Assembly (NCBI GenBank): GCA_002067795.1
Contig: MVQI01000018.1
Span: forward strand, 1-38,115
Length of the DNA stretch: 38,115 bases
From: Methanosaeta sp. PtaB.Bin039
Lineage (GTDB): Archaea > Halobacteriota > Methanosarcinia > Methanotrichales > Methanotrichaceae
Reading direction: 5' to 3'
Positions 12,463-17,041 of this stretch are shown in pieces. The notes under the pieces are model-generated. The model worked only from the letters and a program-made list of their open reading frames with translations. It did not search any database and was not told the origin of the DNA. Each line of letters opens with the position of its first letter. Positions within the stretch are counted from its first letter, which is position 1. A program made the translations under genes and the position numbers.

Positions 12463-12470
12463 TTTAAATA
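12463..12470 (+). promoter_or_regulatory. TATA box for the AAA/vWA cassette
   Basis: TTTAAATA lies 23 bases before the ATG at 12493, so transcription would start at or beside the start codon. The cassette mRNA is predicted to be leaderless, which fits the lack of a good ribosome binding site for the first gene. Confidence 0.5.
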
Positions 12471-12492: not shown

Positions 12493-13815
12493 ATGGACTT
12501 CTCGGTGAGCTCTCGATTCATCGCTCCGGCCCGAGATGGGGCAGACTCGCTTTCGGCCAAGATATCCTCGCTGGCCCGCTCGCTGGAGGAGCTGCGGCTG
12601 CACGTCGGGCCGGCGGACCTGGTTCTGGGCGACCTGCGCATGAACGCCCAGCTGGCTTTCTGTCTGGCCAACTCATGTCTGCGCAACCGGGCGGTTCTGC
12701 TCTACGGCGGGATAGGGGCAAACAAGACCACCCTGATCAACCTTCTGGGCTCGTCATTCCTGGGCTCAAGCTTCTCGGCCATGGAGAACCTAATGGTGAC
12801 CGGCCACCCGGAGCAGACCGAGGAGAAGGTCGTGGGCTTCATCGATCCCCGCCAGTGGACCTCGCCTTCTCGCGGCCCGCTGGAGGTCATATGGAGCCCC
12901 TGGGCCAGCTCCCGATGGAAGCTGATAAACGAGATAAACCGATTTCCCACCGGCAAACAAAACCTATTCCTCGAGATCCTGCAAAAAAGGAAGCTGACAT
13001 ATGCCGGGCAGGTCATTGAGCCGGGAGATACCTGCTACTTCGCTACAATGAATCCGGAGTTCTCGTCTACATATCCCATGGACGAGGCCCTGATGGATCG
13101 CATTTCCGCATGCGTGCCTGCTGTTCAGCCCGACTTTCTCTCCGGCCTCACGCTCTCAAAGCGCGAGGAGGAGGTGGGCGAGCTGGCCGAGCATCTGCCC
13201 CGCTTCAGCCAGGAGGAATTCGAGGCGCTGCCACTGGCGGTGGCAGAGGTTGCCCTGGACAGCGCAACCGAGCTTGCGATAGTCTCTTTGGTGCGGGAGA
13301 TGACGGTCTGCGAAAGGGCTCCCAATCGTGACAAGACCCAGCTCTCCGATAGCCGCCCCAGCCGCGGCCTGTGCGCAGGCTGTCACTACTTCAACAATCC
13401 CGAGGTATGCTGCTGGCAGGTTGACCAGGGTCTCTCCGACAGGGTACGGCAGGATCTCCGCTCATTTACCAGGGCCATGTCCTTCCTGGCCAAGGGAAAG
13501 GACGGGTCGAAGATGGAGGTGCTGCGTGCGGTGGCGCCTTATGTATTGTGGCATCGCTTGACACCTAATCGCTCCGTTCTTGAGAGGCCTCCTTACTACG
13601 GAGCCGACCGCCTGGCCTTCGTCTCCGACCTTGTGGCCCGCAGCATCGACCGGACGGTTCACGAGCGCGGGGAGGCCAACCTGATCTTCTCACGGGCGGT
13701 GGATAAGGAGATCTCCCCGGCCCAGGCCAGAGAGGAGCTCTCCCAGTTCGACGATCCACTGGTCCAGCTGGACTATCTGCCGGCTCTTGAGCGACTCTTA
13801 AGGCCGGATCTCTGA
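12493..13815 (+). CDS. MoxR-like AAA ATPase, variant Walker motifs
   Basis: The 440-residue protein has the core layout of MoxR/CobS-type AAA+ ATPases: P-loop region (residues 72-79), Walker B region (143-150), sensor 1 FATMNPEF (Asn187) and the segment MDEALMDRIS with a candidate arginine finger (Arg203). Two key positions deviate. The P-loop reads GGIGANKT, with Asn77 where a glycine is usual, and the Walker B reads LINEINR, with Asn146 instead of aspartate before Glu147. A cysteine cluster Cys294, Cys297, Cys306, Cys307 may bind metal. It is first in a cassette with a GXGXG protein and a vWA protein. MoxR-vWA pairs generally act as chaperones that insert metals or assemble complexes. Its own substrate is unknown. 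Confidence 0.85.
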   Translation: MDFSVSSRFIAPARDGADSLSAKISSLARSLEELRLHVGPADLVLGDLRMNAQLAFCLANSCLRNRAVLLYGGIGANKTTLINLLGSSFLGSSFSAMENLMVTGHPEQTEEKVVGFIDPRQWTSPSRGPLEVIWSPWASSRWKLINEINRFPTGKQNLFLEILQKRKLTYAGQVIEPGDTCYFATMNPEFSSTYPMDEALMDRISACVPAVQPDFLSGLTLSKREEEVGELAEHLPRFSQEEFEALPLAVAEVALDSATELAIVSLVREMTVCERAPNRDKTQLSDSRPSRGLCAGCHYFNNPEVCCWQVDQGLSDRVRQDLRSFTRAMSFLAKGKDGSKMEVLRAVAPYVLWHRLTPNRSVLERPPYYGADRLAFVSDLVARSIDRTVHERGEANLIFSRAVDKEISPAQAREELSQFDDPLVQLDYLPALERLLRPDL

Positions 13816-13825
13816 GGTATTCGGT

Positions 13826-14593
13826 ATGGGGCTCAAGGGCTTCATGGAAGAGGCTTACGGTGGGCAGGGCAGGGTGCGAAAGCTTGCGACTCGCCGGGGC
13901 AGCCAGGTCGTATCGGTGGAGGATCTGGCAGATCGTCTGGGGCCGCGGCCTTCCAGGGCAGAGGTGGCAGAGCTGGCCCCTGCCGAAGGACTCTTGCGCC
14001 TGATCGAGAGCCCACCAGCCCAAAAGAGGGGGGCGGTAATATGGGGATACCTCACCAGCCTGGCTGCAGAGCAGTCGGCTTCGCCGATCTGTGTGCCGGC
14101 CGGCGACTGGGCTGGCCTGGAGATGGCAGGCGGCAGACTGATATTGCAGCCCGGGCTGCGCCCGCCCTCTCATGTAGGGGAGAGGATGAAAGGCGGGAGG
14201 ATATCGATGCTGGTGGCAGGGGAGTACCTGGGTCAGGAGATGCATGGGGGTGGGATAGTATGCTCGGCCTGTTCGGGATTCGCCTTCCGCAACATGAGGG
14301 GCGGCTTTGGCGTCGTGAAGGGGAATGCCGCGGATCATCTGGGAGTGGGCAACGCCGGAGGGCGCATCCTGGTTAGAGGATCGGCCGGAGCGCGCGCAGG
14401 CTGGCTGATGCGTCTTGGCCGCCTGGTAATTCTCGGGGACTGTGCCGATTACCTGGGGCTGCGGCAGTCCGGAGGCGAGATCCTGGTACGGGGTGCGGCA
14501 GGCTGCCGTGCCGGTCTGCAGAGGCGAGGCGGCCGCCTGGTTGCCGGGGCGGTTGGTGCGGAGGCTGGCGATGTCTCGATCCGCTGCATCTGA
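13826..14593 (+). CDS. GXGXG beta-helix protein
   Basis: Residues about 95-250 consist of repeated units of the form GG-x-I-x-V-x-G-x-x-G-x-x-x-G (MAGGRLILQPG, MKGGRISMLVAG, MHGGGIVCSAC, NAGGRILVRGSAG, QSGGEILVRGAAG). This is the GXGXG right-handed beta-helix shared by the glutamate synthase C-terminal domain and the FwdC/FmdC subunit of formylmethanofuran dehydrogenase. Residues 1 to about 90 are not recognised. At 255 residues it is close to FwdC size, but the unknown N-terminus and the company of a MoxR ATPase and a vWA protein argue against it being a simple FwdC paralogue. A GAGGT seven bases before the ATG supports the start. Ten bases separate it from the ATPase gene. Confidence 0.82.
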   Translation: MGLKGFMEEAYGGQGRVRKLATRRGSQVVSVEDLADRLGPRPSRAEVAELAPAEGLLRLIESPPAQKRGAVIWGYLTSLAAEQSASPICVPAGDWAGLEMAGGRLILQPGLRPPSHVGERMKGGRISMLVAGEYLGQEMHGGGIVCSACSGFAFRNMRGGFGVVKGNAADHLGVGNAGGRILVRGSAGARAGWLMRLGRLVILGDCADYLGLRQSGGEILVRGAAGCRAGLQRRGGRLVAGAVGAEAGDVSIRCI

Positions 14594-16181
14594 TCTGGCC
14601 TGCCCGGACCTGGCAGATGCGTTGAGCTCGACTTGGAGGCTGTGCCGCAGCCGCTGGCACTGGCCGCAGCTACCCCTTCCAAGCCTGGGGCCGGCAGGGT
14701 CCGGGGAGTTTCCCTTCCAGAACTACAATATAAGCATAAGCGATATGCAGGCCCAGGATCCGCAGATATTGCAGAGCCTGCTTGAGCACCTGATAGCGCA
14801 CTATGTATTCTGCCCCCGCTCGCTCGAGACAGCTGCAATTCTGGCACTGGCAGCTCTGCGTGGGATGAACGCAAAGGACGCTTCTGCCGCAGCCCGCATG
14901 GTGAATATATTCTCGGATATAGTGGTCGACTCGTTTAGGCTGGAGAGAAGCCAGACAGATCAGGAGCTGGTAGTCTTGTACTGGAGGTCCATCTGCCAGC
15001 AGGGGCTGCTTGGGGCGGACCGTGTGGTGGCTGCCTTTCTGGAGCGGTTCTGGCAGGAAGATCTGGGCGTTGGCGAAGGCTCTTTCAGCACTGAGGTGGA
15101 TCTGCTGTACCTCGTCTTCTCCCCGGGCGTGCGTGATCGCTCCCTGTGGCAAATGCAATGTCATCAGATGTCCCGGATCCTGTCGCGGCTTGAGGAAGGC
15201 CGGCTTGGAAAGGGGCCGGTGGCGGCATCTGAGCTTCTTCGGGGTGCTGTCGATCACCCTCTATCCGGGCTTGCAGCCCAGCTGGACCCCGAGGAGTACA
15301 GCAGAACTCTTGAGGCCCTGGGGCTTCACGGCGACCTCAAGCGCTGGTACCGCGATCAGGGGTACACCATCCGCATCCGCTCCTCCCAGGCATTCCGGGA
15401 GAGCGAGCATCCGTCGGCTCCTGCACGCTGGCGAATATCCGATCCTCCCGGCGAGATGGACGTGAACTACTCCCTCAGCATGAGCCCCTGGCTGATCCCG
15501 GGCGTCACGACTTATAAGCGGGAGAGGGAGCGGAGCCGCCTGGTTGCCGGGGCCGAGAGGGTGCCGGACCTCCTGGTTGTCCTGGACAGCAGCAGATCCA
15601 TGGGCGGCCACAGCCGCGGCACCCGCACTTTCAATGCCACTCTAGCTGCCTTCAAGGCCTGCCAGCTCGCCCACGGCCAGGGGGCGCAGCTTGCAGCCGT
15701 CAACTTCAGCGATCGGTATCTCGTACAGACCTGGACGAGGGATCTTGGTGCGATTGAAGATTTGCTTGTGGAGGATCTGTGTGGCCGGACCAGCCTTCCT
15801 GGTCTGGCCATCTTAGATCTCGTCCGGGCCAGGCCCGGCTGCCTGGTGCTTTGCATAACCGATACCCAGATCCAGAACATGTACCTCGAGTGGGAACGAA
15901 TGGTCGCTGTGGCCTCTCTCTGCCGCTTCGTGCTGCTCTGCATAGACGATTCGGCCAGGGATCGTGAGGTAGCGGAGTCGCTGGGCGCTTTGGGCCGCGT
16001 ATATCATGTGAACCGCCCTGAGGACCTTTTGACCCTGGTGGTGGAGACGGCTGAGGAGGTATACGGCCATGTCAGCCGCCAGCCAAGCTACTTCGACCTC
16101 CTTAAAAAAAAGAAGCTCCTGATCCGGGCGATCGGGGAAAGTTTTATCTGCCTGAACAGTCTCGAAGGACCACGCTTCTAG
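14571..16181 (+). CDS. vWA (MIDAS) domain protein
   Basis: The C-terminal domain (from about residue 325 of 536) is a von Willebrand A domain with a complete metal-ion-dependent adhesion site: DSSRS (Asp339, Ser341, Ser343), the threonine in GRTSLP and the aspartate in ITDTQ. The N-terminal 300 residues are helical and unrecognised, as in many MoxR-partner vWA proteins. The frame is open to 14442, but GGAGG six bases before the ATG at 14571 marks the start. This overlaps the GXGXG gene by 23 bases and implies coupled translation. No signal peptide is seen, so it should act in the cytoplasm with the AAA ATPase. Its TAG stop shares the G with the first base of tRNA-His. Confidence 0.86.
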   Translation: MSRSAASDLACPDLADALSSTWRLCRSRWHWPQLPLPSLGPAGSGEFPFQNYNISISDMQAQDPQILQSLLEHLIAHYVFCPRSLETAAILALAALRGMNAKDASAAARMVNIFSDIVVDSFRLERSQTDQELVVLYWRSICQQGLLGADRVVAAFLERFWQEDLGVGEGSFSTEVDLLYLVFSPGVRDRSLWQMQCHQMSRILSRLEEGRLGKGPVAASELLRGAVDHPLSGLAAQLDPEEYSRTLEALGLHGDLKRWYRDQGYTIRIRSSQAFRESEHPSAPARWRISDPPGEMDVNYSLSMSPWLIPGVTTYKRERERSRLVAGAERVPDLLVVLDSSRSMGGHSRGTRTFNATLAAFKACQLAHGQGAQLAAVNFSDRYLVQTWTRDLGAIEDLLVEDLCGRTSLPGLAILDLVRARPGCLVLCITDTQIQNMYLEWERMVAVASLCRFVLLCIDDSARDREVAESLGALGRVYHVNRPEDLLTLVVETAEEVYGHVSRQPSYFDLLKKKKLLIRAIGESFICLNSLEGPRF

Positions 16182-16252
16182 CCGGGATAGGGTAGTGGTT
16201 ATCCTGCGGGACTGTGGATCCCTCGAGCCGGGTTCGAATCCCGGTCCCGGCC
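16181..16252 (+). tRNA. tRNA-His (GTG)
   Basis: Cloverleaf: acceptor GCCGGGA/TCCCGGC, D arm GGGT...TCCT, anticodon loop CTGTGGA with anticodon GTG, T arm CCGGG TTCGAAT CCCGG, discriminator C. CCA is not encoded, and a T-rich CTATTTTC follows. The top pair of the anticodon stem appears as a C-T mismatch. Position -1 is A rather than the G that identifies tRNA-His, so G-1 would have to be added after transcription (Thg1-type enzyme). The first base is also the last base of the upstream vWA stop codon. Confidence 0.93.
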
Positions 16253-16334
16253 CTATTTTCGATAAACCATGCTGCTCCGGACAGGCCAGCCTGGCGGCCC
16301 AATCGCAATGTTCGTGCCGGCCGCAGCCGTCTCT

Positions 16335-16742
16335 TCATATATCGGCCCGCCATGACGGCCCTTCCATCGGGCAGGCAATCCTCTCCAAGATGAACTCCTG
16401 AGCCCTCTCCAGGAGGACGGTATCGTAACGCTGGCCCAGATAGTTCTTGAGGTGCGGGATCAGCTTTTCGAAATAAGCAGGAAGATCGCTGTCGTTTAGC
16501 ATCAGTCCGGCCGCAGGAGCCAGTCTTGAGGCGATCTCCTTGACCTCCTGCCTTGACAGGTACATCTGGACAACCAGGTTTCTCTCGTAACAGTCGGCAT
16601 CCACGGAGATCTCCCGGCAGTCAATCTCCAGAGCTTCTCCCGGCATCATCCTTTGGGTGCGAGCCCTCAATGCAGCCTTGCCGAGTACCTGAAACGCCTC
16701 TTCCTCTGCAACAAGCCGAGCCCAGTGGGATAGCTTATCCAT
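16335..16742 (-). CDS. Hypothetical protein
   Basis: This 135-residue soluble, largely helical protein is not recognised. The ATG at 16742 follows GAGG, and the frame extends only three codons further to a TTG. The middle segment (ALEIDCREISVDADCYERNLVVQMYLSRQEV) has alternating beta strands and two cysteines, and the C-terminal half is helical and charged. No membrane segment or known motif is present. It is a single-gene unit between tRNA-His and the RuBisCO remnant. Codon composition and the start context make it a likely real gene. Confidence 0.6.
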   Translation of the reverse strand: MDKLSHWARLVAEEEAFQVLGKAALRARTQRMMPGEALEIDCREISVDADCYERNLVVQMYLSRQEVKEIASRLAPAAGLMLNDSDLPAYFEKLIPHLKNYLGQRYDTVLLERAQEFILERIACPMEGPSWRADI

Positions 16743-17041
16743 GGTCCTCAAGCACCCAGTGCATCTGACCGTCGGGCGAAAAGGTCGGCCCGGATCGGCA
16801 AAACCACATCTTGCGGATAGATATAAAAAGGTTCAGATCCTTTTCGGATATCAGATAGCCATGACCTGTTGGGACGACCTGATGGCGCTTAGGCGAGATG
16901 TTGCAGAGGCCGAGAAGATTATAGAGCTTAGGCACAGCAGTTGTTCTTCCTCCTCGATCGTGACAGATGCGGCCACAAAACGCAGCTTTCGCCCGGTTCA
17001 GCCATCGTCAGGCAGCTTTTGATCCAGGCTCTCGAGGGGAT

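Follow-up and report, generated by a model that had tools for sequence, protein, structure and literature searches.

Pairs formed by a MoxR-type AAA+ ATPase and a protein with a von Willebrand factor A (vWA) domain are known to finish metalloenzymes, and their choice of client is poorly understood. In the NorQ/NorD system, cryo-electron microscopy has located a finger of the vWA protein in the pore of the AAA protein, and hydrolysis twists and stretches NorD, leading to the insertion of iron into nitric oxide (NO) reductase (PMC13036017). NorD consists of an N-terminal helical domain followed by a vWA domain (PMC9976466, PMC13036017), and mutants in its metal ion-dependent adhesion site (MIDAS) keep NorQ binding while the NO reductase is inactive (PMC9976466). 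A further pair, CoxD/CoxE, matures a molybdenum enzyme (PMC4240915). Here we describe a three-gene set (the trio) in a stretch of 38,115 nucleotides (contig MVQI01000018.1; the window) from the 2.45-Mb draft genome (G000) of the archaeon Methanosaeta sp. PtaB.Bin039, in which genes for such a pair stand together with a gene for a GXGXG beta-helix protein (GX) resembling FwdC of formylmethanofuran dehydrogenase.

The trio is a genuine and conserved set of three components, and apparently an undescribed one; the literature yielded no paper that joins MoxR with GXGXG and none that describes these three genes together. Its mechanism is plausible by analogy. We judge it somewhat better than an even chance that the trio encodes one ATP-driven remodeling machine of the MoxR/vWA type, similar to NorQ/NorD, in which the beta-helix protein would serve as a third, dedicated component. 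Relatives of Methanothrix, the Methanotrichaceae, are major methanogens that use acetate.

A conserved three-gene set in Methanotrichaceae

Open reading frame (ORF) calls placed three closely packed genes, for the AAA+ ATPase, GX, and the vWA protein in that order, on the forward strand at positions 12493 to 16181 (Table 1). The AAA and GX genes are 10 bp apart, and the GX and vWA genes overlap by 23 bp if the latter starts at ATG 14571; the ORF tool has this frame open from GTG 14442, and homologues favor a start near the ATG. The median overlaps in relatives are 4 bp (AAA-GX) and 42 bp (GX-vWA). Because the spacing and overlaps are so tight, the trio is suggested to be one translated unit.

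In all 30 other Methanotrichaceae loci sampled that have flanking DNA (L005 and L018 to L046), some of them cut by contig ends, the three genes keep this order and share one strand. Wider neighborhoods differ between genera of the family, and it is therefore the trio that constitutes the unit. Among 200 class members searched, full-length GX was found only in Methanotrichaceae; matches outside this family covered the beta-helix half alone, the pattern that FwdC and other GXGXG proteins should give. The GX gene is present in 41 of the 50 Methanotrichaceae genomes listed and in 31 of the 33 with a completeness of 90% or more. Both AAA and GX are absent from two genomes (G035 and G067); given the linkage of the two genes and the draft state of these genomes, the co-absence does not count as independent evidence. 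The trio was absent from the sister families of Methanotrichaceae in the samples searched. A viral or plasmid origin was rejected, as no relatives of the trio were found in viral contigs or in plasmids. In one Methanotrichaceae genome (G031:C144:15950-16742), the GX gene is split across frames with stops, reflecting either assembly error or decay.

A diverged trio in a second archaeal family

The genome-scale survey covered 393 genomes of one phylum. A profile of the vWA protein gave full-length matches only in Methanotrichaceae and in three genera (g66, g73, and g75) of a second family (f10), which is probably Archaeoglobaceae. A deeply diverged trio (20 to 29% identity) was found in 14 f10 genomes. 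Its genes stand in the order AAA-vWA-GX, and a second GX gene is often present. In g73 the AAA ortholog, a full-length match (E of ~1e-100), lies elsewhere in the genome, leaving vWA and GX as an isolated pair next to phosphate-transport genes. The AAA gene is present in 13 of the 14 vWA-positive f10 genomes versus none of the 41 others (n = 55; Fisher P = 1e-11), the sole vWA-positive genome that lacks it being 68% complete, and full-length GX is present in 12 of 14 versus 0 of 41 (P = 2e-10). These P values ignore relatedness and so overstate the strength of the association; the changed gene order and the unlinked yet retained AAA gene are the better argument for coupling.

The first-pass annotation had read close or overlapping genes for a MoxR-like ATPase, a GXGXG protein, and a vWA protein in this interval, with which the ORFs, profiles, models, and motifs agree. 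It had also suggested that the set could be a chaperone or maturation system; that the MoxR/vWA pair and the FwdC-like beta-helix form one functional unit is supported by conservation in two families and by co-inheritance. As grounds for abandoning the idea it had named a chance neighborhood or a GXGXG protein that travels with unrelated genes, and in the genomes searched neither was found: the trio recurs in all 30 Methanotrichaceae loci and, rearranged, in f10, and GX stays with the motor genes in both families. We found no point in favor of a chance neighborhood, which is rejected by the conserved order and strand in Methanotrichaceae and the rearranged co-occurrence in f10, and its probability is negligible.

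Patchy presence in f10 would suit a biological-conflict (defense) system resembling MoxR-vWA-VMAP, with which the trio shares the logic of MoxR, vWA, and a third protein (PMC7159879). Against this, PADLOC gave no hit above noise, no effector or VMAP domain was found, and the trio is single copy, without architectural variability, and present in nearly all Methanotrichaceae (the GX gene in 31 of the 33 genomes of at least 90% completeness). We regard a defense role as very unlikely.

Several further genes accompany the trio in f10. In loci of g75 and g73, a radical S-adenosylmethionine (SAM) gene (VKYVYGPVPSRRLG...) lies directly 5' of AAA, and in five g73 genomes the unlinked AAA gene is followed by one for a lipoprotein-like small protein (175 to 220 amino acids [aa]). 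A second, diverged beta-helix paralogue, GX2, comes after the trio in several genomes of f10; in G282 it is unlinked. The closed genome G328, of the trio-positive genus g66, is without the trio.

The AAA+ ATPase and the vWA protein

The window's three proteins score below the curated Pfam cutoffs, and all three folds are confirmed despite this by family profiles, AlphaFold2 models, and invariant motifs. The AAA protein matched AAA_3 (E = 1.5e-5; 25.3 bits, against a curated score of 27) and AAA_5 (E = 2.6e-3). Within its family (n = 19), 17 sequences matched AAA_3 and 18 matched AAA_5 (E ≤ 0.1), and the family's profile matches were to 2r44 (1.7e-13) and midasin. Residues K78 and T79 of Walker A, E147 of Walker B, the sensor-1 residue N187, and the arginine finger R203 are invariant, and a GHPEQTEEK motif is nearly invariant in the AAA proteins. 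The Methanotrichaceae copies (35 of 35) carry GGxGANKT and a Walker B motif ending in NE, while the f10 copies (12 of 12) carry GxYGSGKT and DE (IIDE/IVDE). Judged by these motifs, ATP hydrolysis by the Methanotrichaceae protein may be weak or altered.

The C-terminal part of 46 of 47 AAA copies, from both families (loci including L059, L087, and L142 to L146), contains the pattern C-x10-21-C-x2-C-H-Y-x4-8-C, and CxxC is missing altogether from three ordinary f10 MoxR paralogues. The four cysteines are predicted to form a probable iron-sulfur (Fe-S) or Zn site. Heme c at the CxxCH string is unlikely, because the AAA proteins look cytoplasmic.

Two of the 19 AAA sequences weakly matched models of BchD/ChlD (6.7e-6), BchI, and cobaltochelatase, as might be expected of a metal chelatase-type motor (CobS/CobT or BchI/BchD-like) that serves a tetrapyrrole or other cofactor and has its catalytic subunit encoded elsewhere. 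The remaining 17 sequences and the vWA protein gave no such match, however, a large chelatase subunit was not noticed in any neighborhood, and chelatases have no role for an FwdC-like partner; we consider a chelatase motor quite improbable.

The vWA protein matched VWA_2 in Pfam (E = 0.008), had no NCBIfam match, and among Protein Data Bank (PDB) sequences matched only midasin (E = 0.08). Its AlphaFold2 model comprises an all-helical N-terminal domain, a two-strand segment, and then the vWA fold, in which the MIDAS is complete; the helical domain and the vWA domain are modeled well. Within the two-strand segment, W259, Y260, P281, and P310 are invariant, and the predicted local distance difference test (pLDDT) score is mostly below 50. 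By analogy with NorD, this segment is possibly the finger that enters the AAA pore (PMC13036017).

The beta-helix protein and its relation to FwdC

The GX protein of the window matched GXGXG in Pfam (E = 7.5e-5) and the FwdC model TIGR03122 (E = 9e-23) with 80.8 bits, short of the curated cutoff of 130.65. Profile comparison put it nearer to FwdC (E of ~1e-25) than to glutamate synthase (E of ~1e-9). The AlphaFold2 model (pLDDT, 91) consists of an N-terminal helical domain and a beta-helix, and the alignment to FwdC begins only at about residue 105. FwdC structures were the best Foldseek matches, with the FwdC chain of formylmethanofuran dehydrogenase (5t5i_C) at a probability of 1.00 and a template modeling (TM) score of 0.50. 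In a tree of GX and FwdC beta-helices, whose deeper nodes are weak given so short and repetitive a domain, FwdC lies on one side of a moderately supported branch (82/58) and the GX proteins fall outside it.

The relationship to FwdC that the first-pass annotation had noted thus holds for the beta-helix fold, though not for membership: that GX is FwdC itself is ruled out by the sub-cutoff score, the different N-terminal domain, the separate branch, and the presence of true FwdC elsewhere in the same genomes. Its hint of a tie to tungsten or molybdenum formylmethanofuran dehydrogenase found no support. FwdC above the cutoff is present in trio-negative Methanosarcinia and f10 genomes as well as in trio-positive ones, and no fwd genes were seen beside the trio in the ~40 loci viewed. 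A second FwdC-like gene, at the base of the FwdC branch, was seen at two loci (L166 and L167; G259:C25 and G264:C1:965313-966041) and in G264 adjoins a molybdopterin oxidoreductase match.

A role in the maturation of Mo/W enzymes is possible, and co-occurrence gives it no positive support. In its specific form, the trio would be a maturation factor for enzymes with the Mo/W-bis(pyranopterin guanine dinucleotide) cofactor, above all formylmethanofuran dehydrogenase, with GX mimicking FwdC at the FwdB interface. The greater closeness of GX to FwdC than to glutamate synthase and the CoxD/CoxE precedent speak for this. Set against them are the Fwd genes of trio-negative genomes, the lack of linkage to fwd in the loci viewed, and the numbers of PF00384 and AFOR genes, which in 55 f10 genomes do not track trio presence (one PF00384 match each in trio-positive G282 and G387 and six in trio-negative G220). 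We find this form improbable.

Whether the beta-helix protein acts as substrate, adaptor, or scaffold had been left undecided in the first pass, and sequence cannot separate these roles. An adaptor or scaffold is favored because the GX gene accompanies the motor genes and no enzyme gene. A client, folded by the AAA/vWA pair or installed into a larger enzyme encoded elsewhere, would accord with FwdC being a structural part of an enzyme complex and with the frequent adjacency of MoxR/vWA genes to those of their clients, for example, NorQD with cNOR (PMC9976466). However, the GX gene was never beside an enzyme gene in the ~40 loci, and it has stayed with the motor genes where the gene order changed and has been duplicated next to them. 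We therefore rate the client role as unlikely.

A proposed remodeling machine

The reading of the trio as a NorQ/NorD-like machine draws on the fold identities, the intact MIDAS, the conserved cysteines, the gene coupling, and the co-inheritance in two distant archaeal families. The AAA+ protein would form a ring on which the vWA protein docks, possibly with a finger inserted into the pore, and the MIDAS metal site would hold the client, both steps being modeled on NorQ/NorD. The FwdC-derived beta-helix protein would most likely serve as adaptor or scaffold, presenting or mimicking part of the client. ATP hydrolysis would then twist or stretch the bound client, leading to assembly or cofactor insertion, and the four-cysteine site of the AAA protein may add metal or redox input. 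No oxidoreductase gene recurs beside the trio in the loci viewed.

Several points weigh against such a machine. The finger region of the vWA protein is modeled with low confidence, and the GANKT and NE versions of the Walker motifs in Methanotrichaceae are unusual. The GX beta-helices of the two families form no single resolved clade in the tree, and profile comparison found no homology between their N-terminal domains. Recruitment of the third component may thus have taken place on two occasions. By eye, the last helix of the N-terminal domain is similar in the two families (GYLTS..AAE and GYFVSGLYHD). Physical interaction, ATPase activity, and the handling of a client are predicted from genes, motifs, and models.

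More tentatively, and with a probability well short of even, the trio could represent a new class of archaeal, ATP-driven cofactor-maturation machine, in which an enzyme-derived FwdC beta-helix acts as client adaptor, a cysteine-bound metal site on the AAA+ protein senses or carries a metal or an Fe-S cluster, and the beta-helix was possibly recruited independently by each family. If true, an adaptor that began as an enzyme subunit, combined with a motor that bears a cysteine site, would provide a clear, testable case of client choice.

Features of the locus

A TATA-like sequence, TTTAAATA, ~26 nt 5' of the AAA start codon, is a putative promoter, possibly of a leaderless mRNA. A tRNA-His gene follows the trio, its first base shared with the vWA stop codon, and shortly downstream of it lies a 138-aa ORF without any Pfam match.

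Table 1. Positions of features in the window and of genes accompanying the trio in f10
Feature	Position	Strand	Basis
TATA-like sequence	12463..12470	+	inferred from sequence
MoxR-type AAA+ ATPase, 440 aa	12493..13815	+	AAA_3/AAA_5; profile matches 2r44 and midasin; family alignment A2
Walker A GGIGANKTT, residues 72-80, third Gly to Asn	12706..12732	+	alignment A2
Walker B LINE, residues 144-147, Asp to Asn, Glu147 kept	12922..12933	+	alignment A2
Four-cysteine motif C273, C294-x2-C297-H298-Y299, C307	13309..13413	+	invariant in alignment A2
FwdC-like GXGXG beta-helix protein (GX), 255 aa	13826..14593	+	Pfam, TIGR03122, AlphaFold2, Foldseek
N-terminal helical domain of GX, ~residues 1-83, unlike that of FwdC	13826..14074	+	AlphaFold2 model
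Right-handed beta-helix of GX, residues 88-242	14087..14551	+	Foldseek
vWA protein, ~536 aa, N-terminal all-helical and C-terminal vWA domains	14571..16181	+	family alignment, AlphaFold2 model
Two-strand segment just before vWA core, residues 259-330	15345..15560	+	AlphaFold2 strands 275-283, 316-325
Complete MIDAS D339-x-S341-x-S343, T407, D431	15585..15863	+	invariant across both families
vWA stop codon and tRNA-His, overlapping by one base	16179..16253		
138-aa ORF	16335..16751	-	
Radical SAM gene (g75/g73)	L087:11298-12209, L142:10219-11100, L143:7982-8872, L144:7518-8459		
Lipoprotein-like gene (g73)	L142:8356-8883, L143:10209-10742, L144:9785-10342, L145:1953-2612, L146:7879-8466		
GX2 paralogue (f10)	L087:7031-7774, L121:10048-10725, L123:9761-10471, L170		

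Comparison with known systems

The Mg and Co chelatase motor subunits share the AAA+ plus vWA design with the trio, but the trio's matches to them are weak and no chelatase large subunit was seen nearby. CoxD/CoxE are likewise an AAA+/vWA pair serving cofactor maturation; a CoxE-like match was found in just 1 of 20 sequences (E = 0.06), however, and no xanthine oxidase-type enzyme was seen near the trio. The ternary systems built on MoxR and vWA in Kaur et al. 2020 (PMC7159879), VMAP among them, combine a MoxR and vWA core with one dedicated third protein, as the trio does, but the trio is without VMAP, STAND, FtsH, beta-propeller, and effector domains and stands outside their four kinds. With FwdC/FhcC, GX has the right-handed GXGXG beta-helix in common, and it differs in its sub-cutoff score, its N-terminal domain, its location outside the fwd operon, and its place off the FwdC clade.

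Compared with NorQ/NorD and CbbQ/CbbO, the trio adds an FwdC-like gene, a four-cysteine motif in the AAA protein, and, in one family, altered Walker motifs; no NO reductase or Rubisco genes were seen in the trio loci, and by sequence its proteins fall outside NorQD/CbbQO. It shares with them a MoxR-type AAA+ protein and a vWA partner with a helical N-terminal domain, a C-terminal vWA domain, and a DxSxS-T-D MIDAS, and, in a low-confidence part of the model, strands precede the core of the vWA domain, at the place of the NorD finger. This domain layout fits the NorQ/NorD scheme.

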